This document shows, piece by piece, positions 29,977 to 34,895 of a stretch of 64,000 bases of DNA. A model generated the notes under the pieces. That model was not told where the DNA came from, made no database searches, and worked only from the letters and a program-made list of their open reading frames with translations. Each line of letters opens with the position of its first letter. Position 1 is the stretch's first letter. The stretch lies in contig CAIYVZ010000033.1 of NCBI GenBank assembly GCA_903929755.1, positions 1 to 64,000 on the forward strand. Direction: 5' to 3'. This stretch comes from an uncultured Acidobacteriia bacterium (GTDB lineage Bacteria; Acidobacteriota; Terriglobia; Bryobacterales; Bryobacteraceae). A program made the translations under genes and the position numbers.

Positions 29977-30501
29977 CTAAGCGAGCAACCGCTCAGCGTC
30001 CAAAACGGCAGCCGAGCCGTGAATGACCGAAGCAATCCGAATGGCCGCCAGAATGGTCTCTTCTGTGACACCCTTCTGCCGCAAAACACCTTCATGCGAG
30101 GCCACGCAAGCGCCACAGCCATTAATGGCCGAGACCGCGGTGCACCACAACTCGAAGTCCACCGGATCCGACCCGTGCGAGCGAATGACCTGCATCCGCA
30201 GCCGCGCCGGAATCTGACTGTACTTCTCATTGCCGCTCAAATGCTGAAAGCGGTAATAGATGTTATTCATGCCCATTACGGCAGCAGCGCCCTTGGCGGC
30301 ATGCATGGCTTCGGGACTCAGGTGCAGCGCCGCTTCGGCCAGAATCGCCTTGAGTAAACGAGGTTCGCGGGTGGCGATGGCCGAAGCCACCGCCGTTCCC
30401 CACGTCTGCTGGGCTGTGAGTTCGGCCTGTTTCAGGACGTTCTGCAGATTCAGCTTCAGATCGCGTGCGTAATCAGGAAAGAGAGGGTAAAGGTCTTCCA
30501 T
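29977..30501 (-). CDS. ahpD: Alkyl hydroperoxidase AhpD
   Basis: About 174 residues from ATG 30501 ('MEDLYPLFPDYARDLKLNL', the usual AhpD start; a GGGAAAG site lies upstream). AhpD relays electrons to AhpC and has weak peroxidase activity of its own. The redox site 'NGCGACVASHE' has the two cysteines and the distal histidine; the catalytic glutamate is in 'DFELW'. The histidine between the cysteines of the mycobacterial enzyme (Cys-Ser-His-Cys) is alanine here. The frame runs on to 30561 but that would overlap ahpC. It follows the ahpC fusion by 14 bases, matching the ahpC-ahpD operon of mycobacteria. Confidence 0.92.
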   Translation of the reverse strand: MEDLYPLFPDYARDLKLNLQNVLKQAELTAQQTWGTAVASAIATREPRLLKAILAEAALHLSPEAMHAAKGAAAVMGMNNIYYRFQHLSGNEKYSQIPARLRMQVIRSHGSDPVDFELWCTAVSAINGCGACVASHEGVLRQKGVTEETILAAIRIASVIHGSAAVLDAERLLA

Positions 30502-30515
30502 CAGACTTTCCCGCC

Positions 30516-31292
30516 TCAGACTTTCAGAACGTCGTCGCCCTTGTTCCAGTTGCAGGGGCAAAGTTCATCGGTCTGCAGAGCGTCCAGAACGCGCAGAACT
30601 TCCTGCGGATTGCGGCCGACGGAGAGATCATTGACGGACACGAAGCGGATCACGCCTTCGGTGTCCACCACGAACGTGGCGCGCTGCGCCACACCGGCGT
30701 TGGGGTCGAGAATACCGAGCGCCTTGCAGAGTTCCTGCTTCACATCGGCCAGCATGGGGAACGGCAGATCGTGCAGGTCGGCGTGATGGGTGCGCCAGGC
30801 GTGGTGAACGAATTCGGAATCCGTGCTGCCGCCCAGAAGCTGCGCGTCACGATCGGCGAATTCGCCATTTAGCTTGCCGAAAGCGGCAATTTCCGTGGGG
30901 CAAACGAAGGTAAAATCCTTCGGCCAGAAGAAGTAGACCTTCCACTTACCAGCGAAGCTCTGGTTGGTGATCTGCGTAAAGGCGTTCTTCATGTCCAGCG
31001 ACACGGTCGCGGTCACGTTAAAATCGGGGAATTTCTGTCCTACTCCAAGCATCTGTTTGGTCTCCTGTGTTTGTTTATAAAGCACGTCAATGGCGGCCAT
31101 CAGGACAGTGTCCTTTTCGGTTAAACCATTTACGGAATGCGTGTAACTTGTAACTTCAACCCGGCCCCACTGCAGCACGAGGTCGGGATGATGCGCCTGA
31201 CTTTCGGCCACTGCCGCAATGCGGTTGACAAAGTCCAGGCCACTTAAGAAATCGGGAAAGAGATACGTCTTTTTTAAGCTGTCTACTGACAT
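30516..31292 (-). CDS. ahpC: Pterin-4a-carbinolamine dehydratase-like domain fused to AhpC peroxiredoxin
   Basis: The 258-residue frame joins two domains. Residues 1-77 match carbinolamine dehydratases (DCoH/PhhB): 'FPDFLSGLDFVNRIAAVAE', the active-site 'HHP' (34-36) and 'YTHSVNGLTEKD' are kept, although the usual first ~20 residues are missing. Residues 81-258 are an AhpC of mycobacterial type: peroxidatic Cys131 in 'FTFVCPTE', resolving cysteines in 'ELCPCNWNKGD'. An internal ATG at 31052 (Met81) has AGGAGA nine bases upstream, so free AhpC may also be made. ATG 31292 overlaps the PerR-like gene end by 10 bases. It removes peroxides with AhpD; the dehydratase role is unclear. Confidence 0.85.
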   Translation of the reverse strand: MSVDSLKKTYLFPDFLSGLDFVNRIAAVAESQAHHPDLVLQWGRVEVTSYTHSVNGLTEKDTVLMAAIDVLYKQTQETKQMLGVGQKFPDFNVTATVSLDMKNAFTQITNQSFAGKWKVYFFWPKDFTFVCPTEIAAFGKLNGEFADRDAQLLGGSTDSEFVHHAWRTHHADLHDLPFPMLADVKQELCKALGILDPNAGVAQRATFVVDTEGVIRFVSVNDLSVGRNPQEVLRVLDALQTDELCPCNWNKGDDVLKV

Positions 31293-31690
31293 ATGATGCA
31301 CTTCCCTCTCAGAATCGCTTCGAACGCGCGGAAGTTTTTTTTCTTCATTTCCGGCGGCAGATCGAACCACTCCACGTCTTCCACTGACCCGCAAAGGTCG
31401 CAGATGAAATGGTGGTGTTTCTCGAGATTGGCGTCGTACCTGGCCGCTTTTCCGTCCAGCATCATCTCGATCACCAGCCCGGCTTCCACGAGGGCGTGGA
31501 GGGTGTTGTAAACCGTCGCGCGCGAGGTCATGGCATTGTCTTTGTTGACCGCCGCGCAGAGTTCTTCCACCGTGGCATGGTCGCGCCGCAACAGCAGATG
31601 CTCCAGCACAAAAAAACGCTGGGGAGTCCGCCGGACACCGGTCCGCCGGAAGGCCTCTTCGATCATCTGCGCCGCTTCCAGTGTCGTCAT
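31283..31690 (-). CDS. perR: Fur-family regulator, PerR-like
   Basis: About 135 residues from ATG 31690: winged helix ('RRTPQRFFVLEHLLLR', 'SRATVYNTLHALVEAGLV') and dimer domain with 'KHHHFICDLCG' and a final 'GKCIICQ', i.e. the two Cys-X2-Cys pairs of a structural zinc site. His and Asp residues for the regulatory metal are present. Placement before ahpC and ahpD and the operator at 31714-31729 suggest a peroxide sensor rather than an iron regulator; this is inference. The frame opens from a TTG at 31711, inside the gap next to the operator, which is less likely. It is the first gene of the perR-ahpC-ahpD operon. Confidence 0.86.
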   Translation of the reverse strand: MTTLEAAQMIEEAFRRTGVRRTPQRFFVLEHLLLRRDHATVEELCAAVNKDNAMTSRATVYNTLHALVEAGLVIEMMLDGKAARYDANLEKHHHFICDLCGSVEDVEWFDLPPEMKKKNFRAFEAILRGKCIICQ

Positions 31691-31713
31691 GAATATTGGA
31701 TTACTATCCAAGC

Positions 31714-31729
31714 TTAGAACTGATTCTAA
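31714..31729. promoter_or_regulatory. PerR/Fur-type operator
   Basis: A perfect inverted repeat, TTAGAA-N4-TTCTAA, lies 24 bases before the perR start and contains the stop codon of the upstream glycosyltransferase gene. On the minus strand a TATATT that could be a -10 overlaps its left edge, so a bound regulator would block its own operon. Confidence 0.6.
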
Positions 31730-33891
31730 TATAGCAGATACAGCCGGTTGCCTGCACGCTCGGAAATAAATTTCATATTCCAGCGTTCGGGGTCCTTCCG
31801 GATATCCGGGGCAAGCCAGTTGCCATCATCAATCAGAAAATAGCGGATGCCGTGGCGGAGAACTTCCCGGGTCGCATCTTTCCGGAGATCGGCTGGTTGC
31901 GGTTCGTCGCTTTGGGTCAGCTTTGCTTCGAACGGCTTACAGGCGACGCCAACACAGTGTTCCAGGTGGACCCGAATCTGGCTCTGGTCGTGTGAAGAGA
32001 ACATTTCCACCCGGTCGATGACGGTGCCCGGAGGAAACTCGGCGTCCACATACATGCCGGGATGAATCGGCTCCCAGCTCTTCCACCGGGTAGTGAGATT
32101 TCCATCCACCACCAGGCCGATGTCCCAGGGGAAAGGCTTTGCGTTGAGCTTCGCGGCCTTCACTTCGAGGTCGCCAGAGAAGAACTTCAACTCTCCGATG
32201 CTCCAGTTGTCACTCGGATTGGTCGCGGTCTGGGCGAGCCGCAACCGCCCGAGGATGCGAGGCGGGAAGGTGTACCTGTTCTTCCAGGTGGGCATGGTGC
32301 CGGCATCGGTAGCGGTGGTGAGCACTTCCTGCAGCAGGTCGCCTTCAGCGGACTGGTAAGTCACCATAACGTCGGATTTCGAATAGCCGTCGGCCATCGG
32401 GGAGGTGCTGAGAACCTTCTTACCCAGCGGCACTTCCGCATCGATCATTTGAGAGGTGACCCACGGAATGGAGTGCGTGGCGAGGAACGTGTGTTCGGGG
32501 ATCTTCCGCAGGGCCACTTGCCAAAGGGCATTGGTGATCCGGACATTGCCGCCGACCTCGTACTTCGCGGTCATTTTGGGCCACGCCAGAACTGCGGCAC
32601 ACCCGATGACCACCGGCAGAACCCAGCGGACCCGCACCATGACCAGCGCCATGGCCAGGGCGGTAAAGGGCAGCATGGGCAACAGGAAGCGAGCGGCAAT
32701 GTTCTGGGGATACGGGATGAGGAAGATCAGGGCTGGCAGCAAGACGCGCCGACCGTCACGCCACTTCAGTGCGATCAGACCCAGGGGGGCCAGCAGGAAC
32801 CAGGGCCCCAACTGCCCGCCCAACCGCCCGGACACGGTCACCATCCAGAAGAGTGGCCGGAGATCTTCAATGTCGTAGCGGCGGAACCACATTCTGGTGA
32901 AGTCCTCAAAAGCCACGTGGACATACTGATTGGGGAACAGCCGGTTGGCGAAGGGCGAGAGCGGATTATCCACATAGATCCAGTTCTTGACGAGCCATGG
33001 CAGCGCGATTAAAGCCGCCGCGCCGCAAGCGAGGAGCAGGGCCTTCGGACGCCGCTTCCAGAGCAGAATCAGGATCACATACAGCATGGCGGGAAAACCT
33101 GTGTACTTGATGGCGAAGCAGAATCCGCCGGCCAGGCCGATGGCCACAGGGAGCCACCGGTTGGCTGCGGAATCGGGATCTTCACGCCAGATCTCGGTCA
33201 AATAGAAGGCCGCGAACCCGGCGGTGACCAGCCCGATATCGTTGTAAGCGGTGGACCCGGCCCACCCGGCCAGAGGAGACAGAAATACCAGTAAAGCGGC
33301 ACCCGCGCCCGCCGCCTCCTGCCCGATGCGCCGCCCGTAGCTGAAGATCAGGAACGGCAACGCGAGCAGGAAACAGCACTCCACGGTGGCCGCCGCTGAT
33401 TGACGCCCGAACGAGAATGCGTCTAAAAACAGCATCTCCATGGCCAGCGGCATATTGGCATAAAAAGTGGTTGTCCGCGGATAAAAACCGCGTTCGCGGA
33501 AGAAGCGATAGACCAGCCCCAGGTGGTAAGTCTGCCCGTCCGGACTATACTCCGGGCCCATGGCGTTGATCAGGTAAACGTAGGCGTAAACCGCAAAAAC
33601 CAACAGCCACCAAAGGTTGGGCCGAACCCACTGTGACTTGCCCCCGAAGCGGTAGTTCAGAAGCAGAGCCACTGCGCCCAGAACCACAAACGAGGCGGTC
33701 CAGACCAGCCCTGTTGCGCACAGCCCGAAGATCAGCAAACTGAGCAGCGCGGCGCCGGTGACGCCAGCGAGCAGGTCATGCTCCAAAGGCTGCAGCCGGA
33801 GCCGAAGACGCTCAAACGCCAGCCTCCCGATCGCCCACGCCGTGGCTATAGTGAACCCGGCGCCGAACAGGATCGAAATGGCGTGCTTCAT
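31726..33891 (-). CDS. Membrane glycosyltransferase (GT-C type) with discoidin-like C-terminal domain
   Basis: About 721 residues from ATG 33891. Ten or more membrane helices fill residues 1-460, with an acidic first loop ('YSPDGQTYHLGLVYRFF'), the place of the catalytic Asp in GT-C enzymes of the PMT/ArnT clan. The periplasmic C-terminal part (about 510-640) resembles an F5/8 type C domain ('LVVDGNLTTRWKSWEPIHPG'). It would transfer a lipid-linked sugar to an envelope acceptor. The gene starts six bases after aguA; the frame runs on upstream to 33945 within aguA. Its stop lies inside the perR operator. Link to polyamine synthesis is probably positional only. Confidence 0.78.
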   Translation of the reverse strand: MKHAISILFGAGFTIATAWAIGRLAFERLRLRLQPLEHDLLAGVTGAALLSLLIFGLCATGLVWTASFVVLGAVALLLNYRFGGKSQWVRPNLWWLLVFAVYAYVYLINAMGPEYSPDGQTYHLGLVYRFFRERGFYPRTTTFYANMPLAMEMLFLDAFSFGRQSAAATVECCFLLALPFLIFSYGRRIGQEAAGAGAALLVFLSPLAGWAGSTAYNDIGLVTAGFAAFYLTEIWREDPDSAANRWLPVAIGLAGGFCFAIKYTGFPAMLYVILILLWKRRPKALLLACGAAALIALPWLVKNWIYVDNPLSPFANRLFPNQYVHVAFEDFTRMWFRRYDIEDLRPLFWMVTVSGRLGGQLGPWFLLAPLGLIALKWRDGRRVLLPALIFLIPYPQNIAARFLLPMLPFTALAMALVMVRVRWVLPVVIGCAAVLAWPKMTAKYEVGGNVRITNALWQVALRKIPEHTFLATHSIPWVTSQMIDAEVPLGKKVLSTSPMADGYSKSDVMVTYQSAEGDLLQEVLTTATDAGTMPTWKNRYTFPPRILGRLRLAQTATNPSDNWSIGELKFFSGDLEVKAAKLNAKPFPWDIGLVVDGNLTTRWKSWEPIHPGMYVDAEFPPGTVIDRVEMFSSHDQSQIRVHLEHCVGVACKPFEAKLTQSDEPQPADLRKDATREVLRHGIRYFLIDDGNWLAPDIRKDPERWNMKFISERAGNRLYLLY

Positions 33892-33896
33892 TTGGG

Positions 33897-34895
33897 TCAG
33901 GCCGGTTCCTGTTGGGTCATGCAATGGAGCGTTCCCAGGCCCCAAACAAGCTCTACGCAGTTGATGCCCACCACGGATCTATCGGGGAAGCATTCGGCCA
34001 AAATATTCAGCGCGATCCGGTCATTCGGGTCATTAAACACGGGCACCAGGACGGTCTTGTTGGCGATATAGAAGTTGGCATAGCTGGCCGGCAAGCGAAC
34101 CCCGTCGAATACCACCGGAGCCGGACAGGGCAGCGTTTTCACGCGAACCGGGAAGGCCTTGAGGATGTCGAGATTCTCGCGGAGCGGCGCATAATTGTCG
34201 TCAGAAGGATCGGCCTCGGAAACCACGACCACGGTGTCCCGGTCAGTGAACCGCGCCAGGTCATCCACATGCCCGTGCGTATCGTCGCCGGCAATGCCGT
34301 TCTTCAGCCAGAGAACCTTCTTAATGCCCAGGTACTTCGCCATCTGGGCCTCAAGCGCCTCTCGTGGCATCCCTGGATTCCGGGCCTGAATGGGACTCAG
34401 CAGACACTCTTCGGTAGTGAGGAGCAACCCGGCGCCGTTCACATCCACCGAACCACCTTCGAGCACAATGGGAGGTGCGAACTTCGGCACCCCGGCTAAC
34501 GTCGCCACGGTATGGCCGGCCGCGTCATCCAGAAGATGGTTGGCGTACTTGGCCCACCCGTTGAAGCGCCACTTCACTGCAGCCTTTTCGCCGGCAGCAT
34601 TCTTCACGAACAGGGGCGCGAAATCCCGAGTCCAGACGCGGTCCGTTTCTACGGTGTAGAAATCGACCGCTGCCAGCACTGAGCCATTCCGCTCGAGAAT
34701 CTGCCGAGCCGATTCGCGGGCATCCTCATCCTTCACGAGGATGCGAACCCGTTCCACCTGGCTGAGTTTTCGCACGATTTCGCCATAAACCCAGGGAATG
34801 GGCTCAAAACGATCCGGCCAGTCTTCCTGATTGTGGGGCCAGGCGAGCCAGGTGGCCAGATGCGGTTCCCACTCCGCGGGCATCCGGTAACTCAC
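33897..34895 (-). CDS. aguA: Agmatine deiminase
   Basis: The enzyme converts agmatine to N-carbamoylputrescine. About 332 residues from GTG 34895, which overlaps the aguB stop as GTGA. Family motifs: 'MPAEWEPHLATWLAWPHN', 'DRVWTRDFAP', 'VLEGGSVDVNG', 'DDTHGHVDDLARF' (catalytic His/Asp) and the nucleophilic cysteine in 'GTLHCMTQQEP'. Residue order and length fit the peptidyl-arginine-deiminase-like (guanidino-modifying) fold. Together with the preceding gene it completes the plant/bacterial route arginine -> agmatine -> putrescine; an arginine decarboxylase is not seen here. Confidence 0.94.
   Translation of the reverse strand: MSYRMPAEWEPHLATWLAWPHNQEDWPDRFEPIPWVYGEIVRKLSQVERVRILVKDEDARESARQILERNGSVLAAVDFYTVETDRVWTRDFAPLFVKNAAGEKAAVKWRFNGWAKYANHLLDDAAGHTVATLAGVPKFAPPIVLEGGSVDVNGAGLLLTTEECLLSPIQARNPGMPREALEAQMAKYLGIKKVLWLKNGIAGDDTHGHVDDLARFTDRDTVVVVSEADPSDDNYAPLRENLDILKAFPVRVKTLPCPAPVVFDGVRLPASYANFYIANKTVLVPVFNDPNDRIALNILAECFPDRSVVGINCVELVWGLGTLHCMTQQEPA

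Follow-up and report, generated by a model that had tools for sequence, protein, structure and literature searches.

One open frame in the window, the whole 64,000-nucleotide stretch of DNA analysed here, joins a shortened pterin dehydratase (PCD, DCoH-like) domain to a mycobacterial-type AhpC. The fusion is real, but it is a local variation on a gene cluster that relatives carry unfused: two known families, in a known kind of cluster, that have been newly joined in a small number of genomes. The likeliest reading, which we hold to be reasonably probable, is an in-frame gene fusion with a peroxide-regulated dual output (the fusion protein and a free AhpC), in which the PCD would still dehydrate pterins.

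Architecture of the fused gene and its neighbours

The fusion frame (30516..31292, minus strand) opens with an ATG at 31292 and encodes 258 aa plus stop, with no internal stop. Residues 1-72 (31077..31292, minus strand) form the shortened PCD domain, whose N-terminus is absent. E30, HHP at 34-36, TH at 51-52 and D61 are present, and the intact His-His-Pro and Thr-His residues claimed in the initial annotation were thus found. Next comes a short linker, residues 73-80 (31053..31076, minus strand), which contains AGGAGA and corresponds to the intergenic and Shine-Dalgarno (SD) stretch of unfused relatives; it joins the PCD (residues 5-69) to the mycobacterial-type AhpC (81-258). The AhpC part (30516..31052, minus strand, 178 aa plus stop) has its own ATG with its first base at 31052. 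Between this ATG and the internal SD AGGAGA (31061..31066, minus strand) lie 8 bases; the site had been reported earlier at a distance of nine, a matter of counting. The fusion product would read VLYKQTQETKQMLGV across the junction from PCD through linker to AhpC.

The frame sits between a Fur/PerR-type regulator (31283..31690, minus strand) and AhpD (29977..30501, minus strand). The regulator is taken from the ATG at 31690, the mechanically called ORF beginning at TTG 31711. Its gene ends at 31283 and overlaps the fusion start (31292) by 10 bases, and 14 bases separate the fusion stop from the ATG of AhpD (30501). This regulator-ahpC-ahpD neighbourhood bears out the proposed tie to a peroxide-defence locus.

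Domain and family assignments

In terms of Pfam domains, PF01329 (Pterin_4a) matches residues 5-69 with an E of 5.9e-21 and 74.8 bits against a cut-off of 26. The match covers profile positions 25 to 89 of 91; the domain is incomplete, with its N-terminal part missing. PF00578 (AhpC-TSA) matches residues 84-217 (E 5.2e-35), and 2bmx (“alkyl hydroperoxidase C”, presumably from M. tuberculosis) is the solved structure nearest to the AhpC part, with E 2.9e-64 over residues 81-256. The ORF, the Pfam matches and the 2bmx match together agree with the first description of a single open frame carrying a DCoH/PhhB-like domain and a mycobacterial-type AhpC. The AhpC part is full-length, and the cysteines of FVCPTE and of the C-terminal ELCPCNW are present. 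At equivalog level both parts score below the NCBIfam cut-offs, the PCD domain alone with at best 69.7 bits vs 80 for the 4a-hydroxytetrahydrobiopterin dehydratase equivalogs (PRK00823 set), and the AhpC part with 143.1 vs 272 bits for the AhpC equivalog TIGR03137.

Across 24 aligned PCDs, E30, H34, H35, P36, T51, H52 and D61 are invariant, and every invariant column of this alignment is retained by all three fusions that we found. We take E-x3-HHP...TH...D to be the active-site motif of PCD.

As for the neighbours, AhpD is over the TIGR00777 cut-off (222.4 vs 191.95 bits, with a query started at 30504, one codon before the ATG at 30501), so this name given earlier holds. The regulator belongs to the Fur family (PF01475, 79.4 bits vs 23.1). 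It misses every NCBIfam PerR equivalog cut-off (best 75.2 vs 180 bits, NF052545), and the “PerR” of the initial annotation is therefore a family-level name only.

Distribution of the fusion and reality of the junction

The fusion was searched for in 19 genus, 237 family, 257 order, 399 class and 396 phylum genomes; these sets overlap, and those of class and phylum are even samples. A stop-free match over fusion residues 1-258 was found in only 3 genomes, which belong to a single genus (the window's own, G008 with 91% protein identity and G003 with 90%), at E limits (1e-102 for the order and phylum searches, 1e-80 for the class search) under which a distant fusion could be missed. The same domain order, which the initial annotation had proposed to look for in other acidobacteria, thus occurs in two further members of this genus. 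A separate contig scan, which may omit records very near the window's genome, gave no stop-free match over the whole fusion query among the best 80 of 586 relatives.

An assembly or sequencing error concealing a stop codon at the junction would be in keeping with the other relatives, which carry a stop at this place. This explanation was rejected, since the junction is open in three separate genomes and its bases differ among them. The linker of one fused gene (L008) is even one codon shorter, with the frame kept. Because the two other genus genomes show a stop-free junction with different bases at 90-91% protein identity, we regard an error as exceedingly improbable. Relatives with two separate genes and a stop between, named earlier as a sign against the fusion, do exist at 21 loci; the suspicion of an error that went with them was not borne out. 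As a stop splits the pair in these 21 other loci, the fusion is a derived state, carried by a few members of a single genus.

A concealed start further upstream, by which the PCD N-terminus would be recovered, was likewise rejected. G008 has a stop four codons before the ATG, and in the window the upstream frame is without PCD-like sequence, judged by eye.

Unfused relatives and origin of the fusion

Within the family, 97 places gave AhpC-type matches with E up to 1e-65, and 91 of them were examined (11 in the genus and 80 others). A free PCD served as tblastn query, and a separate PCD was counted when it lay within 900 bases upstream of ahpC and in the same orientation. Three of the 91 loci are fused, 21 have a separate upstream PCD (8 in the genus, 13 outside), 65 have no PCD match and 2 end too early. 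The gap between PCD and ahpC is 268 bases in L155. Every PCD frame in the unfused loci ends at its own stop (21/21).

A Fur-type match lies upstream in 19 of the 24 PCD-bearing loci and an AhpD match downstream in 23. The regulatory link is not universal, since the other five (L013, L014, L015, L160 and L176, the last with only 817 bases upstream) are without a regulator match. A further PCD with an ahpC start behind it, TGA lying between the two, sits at a contig edge (G158:C956:15345-15820) and is outside the 24-locus counts. In L171 (G063), counted among the 65 loci without PCD match, a PCD-like remnant (GSVDVKILTRKID...) about 20-100 bases upstream of ahpC looks decayed.

A maximum-likelihood AhpC tree places all 24 PCD-bearing loci within a single clade of 27 members (support 89/83, short of the tool's star); the PCD-ahpC pairing therefore probably arose once. 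The three fused loci join the unfused L009 (98/89) without forming a resolved clade by themselves. That the fusion has a single origin is suggested by their common 33-nt gap and common open junction.

As called, the PCD frames outside the genus, and those of L010 and L014, are about 107-121 residues long, and most of them carry an N-terminal Cys motif. Those of L009, L011, L012, L013 and L016 have 82-87 residues and start immediately ahead of the conserved strand-1 Trp. The fused genes share the start codon of L011 but are without 11 residues (33 nt, in-frame) that include the strand-1 Trp. In L010, L013 and L015 the PCD gene extends into the ahpC SD region, its stop lying 2 to 6 bases ahead of the ATG; these three are possible intermediates toward fusion. 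In the fused genomes the former ribosome-binding site is now inside the linker, with CAGGAG translated as Gln-Glu and with AGGAGA and the ahpC ATG retained. Taken together, the loci give a graded route to fusion, from separate genes, through a PCD that ends in the ahpC ribosome-binding site, to a single frame that retains the old start.

Internal start and candidate operators

The internal SD forms a duplex of -7.4 kcal/mol in all three fused genes, and the 16 loci examined among the 21 unfused ones gave values of -6.4 to -8.7. The internal SD and ATG, from which a second product had been proposed, match the ahpC start signal of these relatives, and we infer that the internal SD is in use and gives free AhpC.

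Upstream of the regulator ATG (31690) lies the palindrome TTAGAATCAGTTCTAA (31714..31729, minus strand), a candidate operator, and two bases downstream of it a second palindrome, TTGGATAGTAATCCAA (31696..31711, minus strand). Both of these tandem palindromes are of 16 bases, and the first shares bases with the stop codon of the ORF upstream (31726-33945). Using the pattern TTAGAANNNNTTCTAA, derived from the window itself, a site with at most 2 mismatches was found before the regulator in 7/7 genus loci that have both a regulator match and that stretch; outside these seven, L011 ends before the operator stretch and L013, L014 and L015 are without regulator match. Single-base shuffles of the stretch reach the observed value in 0-9 of 2000. 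Six of the seven sites are palindromes with no more than one mispaired position; the site of L010 is not palindromic. In L009 it is a perfect palindrome with altered arm bases (TTAGAT...ATCTAA), as an operator might be. None of the other family loci tested came as close as 2 mismatches to TTAGAANNNNTTCTAA, and only the three fused genomes showed the second palindrome.

Selection on the fused PCD

For the three fused pairs, dN/dS (Nei-Gojobori) is 0.160, 0.126 and 0.168 over PCD codons 5-72, and 0.048, 0.044 and 0.030 over the AhpC part; in the fused genomes the PCD part evolves faster than the AhpC part. Nine unfused PCD pairs of our own choosing gave 0.046-0.166, which places the fused PCD (0.13-0.17) at the upper end of the range of free PCDs. 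Two fused-versus-unfused comparisons were saturated or nearly so. The synonymous excess in the fused PCD pairs has p = 2.7e-6, 1.1e-8 and 7.9e-7 (Fisher test on rounded counts, the pairs not being independent). The fused PCD is under purifying selection. The openness of the linker was set aside as proof of selection, a neutral simulation giving a non-significant P = 0.107.

Each fused genome has one PF01329 match (3/3), and no PCD other than the fused one was found there; a second copy could be missed, as the three assemblies are 94-98% complete. The PCD can only be made as part of the fusion, because no stop precedes that of AhpC. Purifying selection, the sole PCD found and the lack of a stop of its own thus point to selection on the fusion protein.

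Fold of the shortened PCD

An AlphaFold2 model of the 80 N-terminal residues with 24 sequences has a mean pLDDT of 91.7 for the PCD part. It contains only strands 5-11, 37-41 and 44-50 and helices 15-31 and 59-79, the last helix extending through the linker. The closest solved chain is 1usm, and residues 5-72 align to its residues 11-78. As 1usm is itself only 80 residues long, the short PCD form has a precedent. The model of the whole fusion is informative for the PCD part only; its AhpC part has pLDDT under 50, from an alignment with only three rows there.

PCD role and genomic setting

The job of a bacterial PCD without phenylalanine hydroxylase is not obvious. Phenylalanine hydroxylase (PF00351) had no match in the three fused genomes, and 5/19 genus genomes have one. 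The PCD here is therefore not tied to this enzyme, and phenylalanine catabolism was rejected as its role. At least one PF01329 match is present in 16/19 genus genomes, 12 of them without phenylalanine hydroxylase. A PF06463 (MoaA-type) match occurs in all three fused genomes and in 17/19 overall, which speaks neither for nor against a molybdenum-cofactor role. Such a role for PCD in molybdenum-cofactor metabolism is given in PMC3223725.

Five genus members (G002, G007, G009, G011 and G013; L239-L244) keep a PCD although no close ahpC match was found in them; PCD thus has a further role or setting apart from AhpC. G009 has two PCD matches, and in L242 and L244 the PCD adjoins a gene resembling a transporter, by eye. 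Three other members (G005, G012 and G017) have neither a PCD match nor a close AhpC match, and the assemblies of two of them fall short of 90% completeness.

The gene neighbourhood points to a helping role of PCD under peroxide. Since PCD lies upstream of ahpC in 24/91 loci and the fusion appears to be selected, peroxide stress is one testable setting for it. The chemistry of 4a-oxidised pterins makes recycling by PCD plausible.

Discussion

In the favoured reading, adjacent PCD and ahpC genes of a regulator-PCD-ahpC-ahpD cluster were joined in frame within one Bryobacterales genus. As the comparison with relatives shows, the stop between them is gone, 33 nt coding for PCD strand 1 are missing, and the old ribosome-binding stretch is now the linker. 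Translation from the ATG at 31292, overlapping the regulator end, would yield PCD-AhpC, and the retained SD and ATG at 31066-31050 would yield free AhpC; both products are predicted to be peroxide-induced through the operators before the regulator. The least certain steps follow: AhpC may assemble in its usual ring with some subunits bearing a PCD domain, the PCD would still dehydrate pterin 4a-carbinolamines from oxidised reduced pterins, and pterin repair would thereby be placed beside peroxide removal.

The PCD part might instead be a structural add-on that dimerises or tetramerises and alters AhpC assembly, its catalysis no longer needed. The missing N-terminal part of the domain fits this, as does the name dimerisation cofactor given to the relative DCoH in PDB entries; in addition, AhpC forms rings. 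Yet E30, HHP, TH and D61 are kept in all three fusions, and a scaffold would not obviously need them, so we consider a purely structural part unlikely. Slightly less probable still is a nearly neutral fusion, in which the internal start would supply nearly all AhpC, with the fusion as a tolerated by-product. The SD and ATG are indeed kept, the open linker is compatible with neutrality (P = 0.107), and 65/91 examined family AhpC loci have no upstream PCD match. Against this, the PCD codons are under purifying selection with the stop of AhpC as their sole stop, and a PCD in the same place elsewhere (L171) looks decayed.

Going beyond the dual-output fusion that we favour, one may tentatively picture a bifunctional peroxide-defence enzyme, with a pterin dehydratase built into part of the AhpC ring and its dose set by the dual-start gene, an idea that we hold to be doubtful. 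If true, it would show that in bacteria lacking phenylalanine hydroxylase the PCD serves to repair reduced pterins damaged by peroxide.

The initial annotation knew of no described protein with this layout. We agree as far as the literature was searched: no description of a PCD-AhpC layout was met among the titles and abstract openings covered.

Comparison with known systems

The fused PCD resembles 1usm, a short PCD/DCoH/PhhB protein (PF01329) that we assume to be from Thermus; it was deposited as “hepatocyte nuclear factor 1-alpha” and is DCoH-type by sequence. HHP, TH and the later D coincide in the two. The fused PCD differs in an N-terminus that is shorter still, in being joined to AhpC and in its genomes, which have no phenylalanine hydroxylase match. 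The locus is also like mycobacterial-type AhpC (2bmx) with AhpD, having a full-length AhpC and an adjoining AhpD, and differs by the extra N-terminal PCD domain. The PCD-ahpC pairs of other family members likewise have PCD upstream of ahpC and a similar SD (16 examined), but in these a stop lies between the genes and the PCDs are longer N-terminally. Finally, the CTP1L and LysIME-EF1 endolysins and Cas11b are proteins unrelated to PCD-AhpC whose single genes, reported to give a full-length product and a shorter one, share the form proposed for the fusion gene, with one frame, an internal start and two products.
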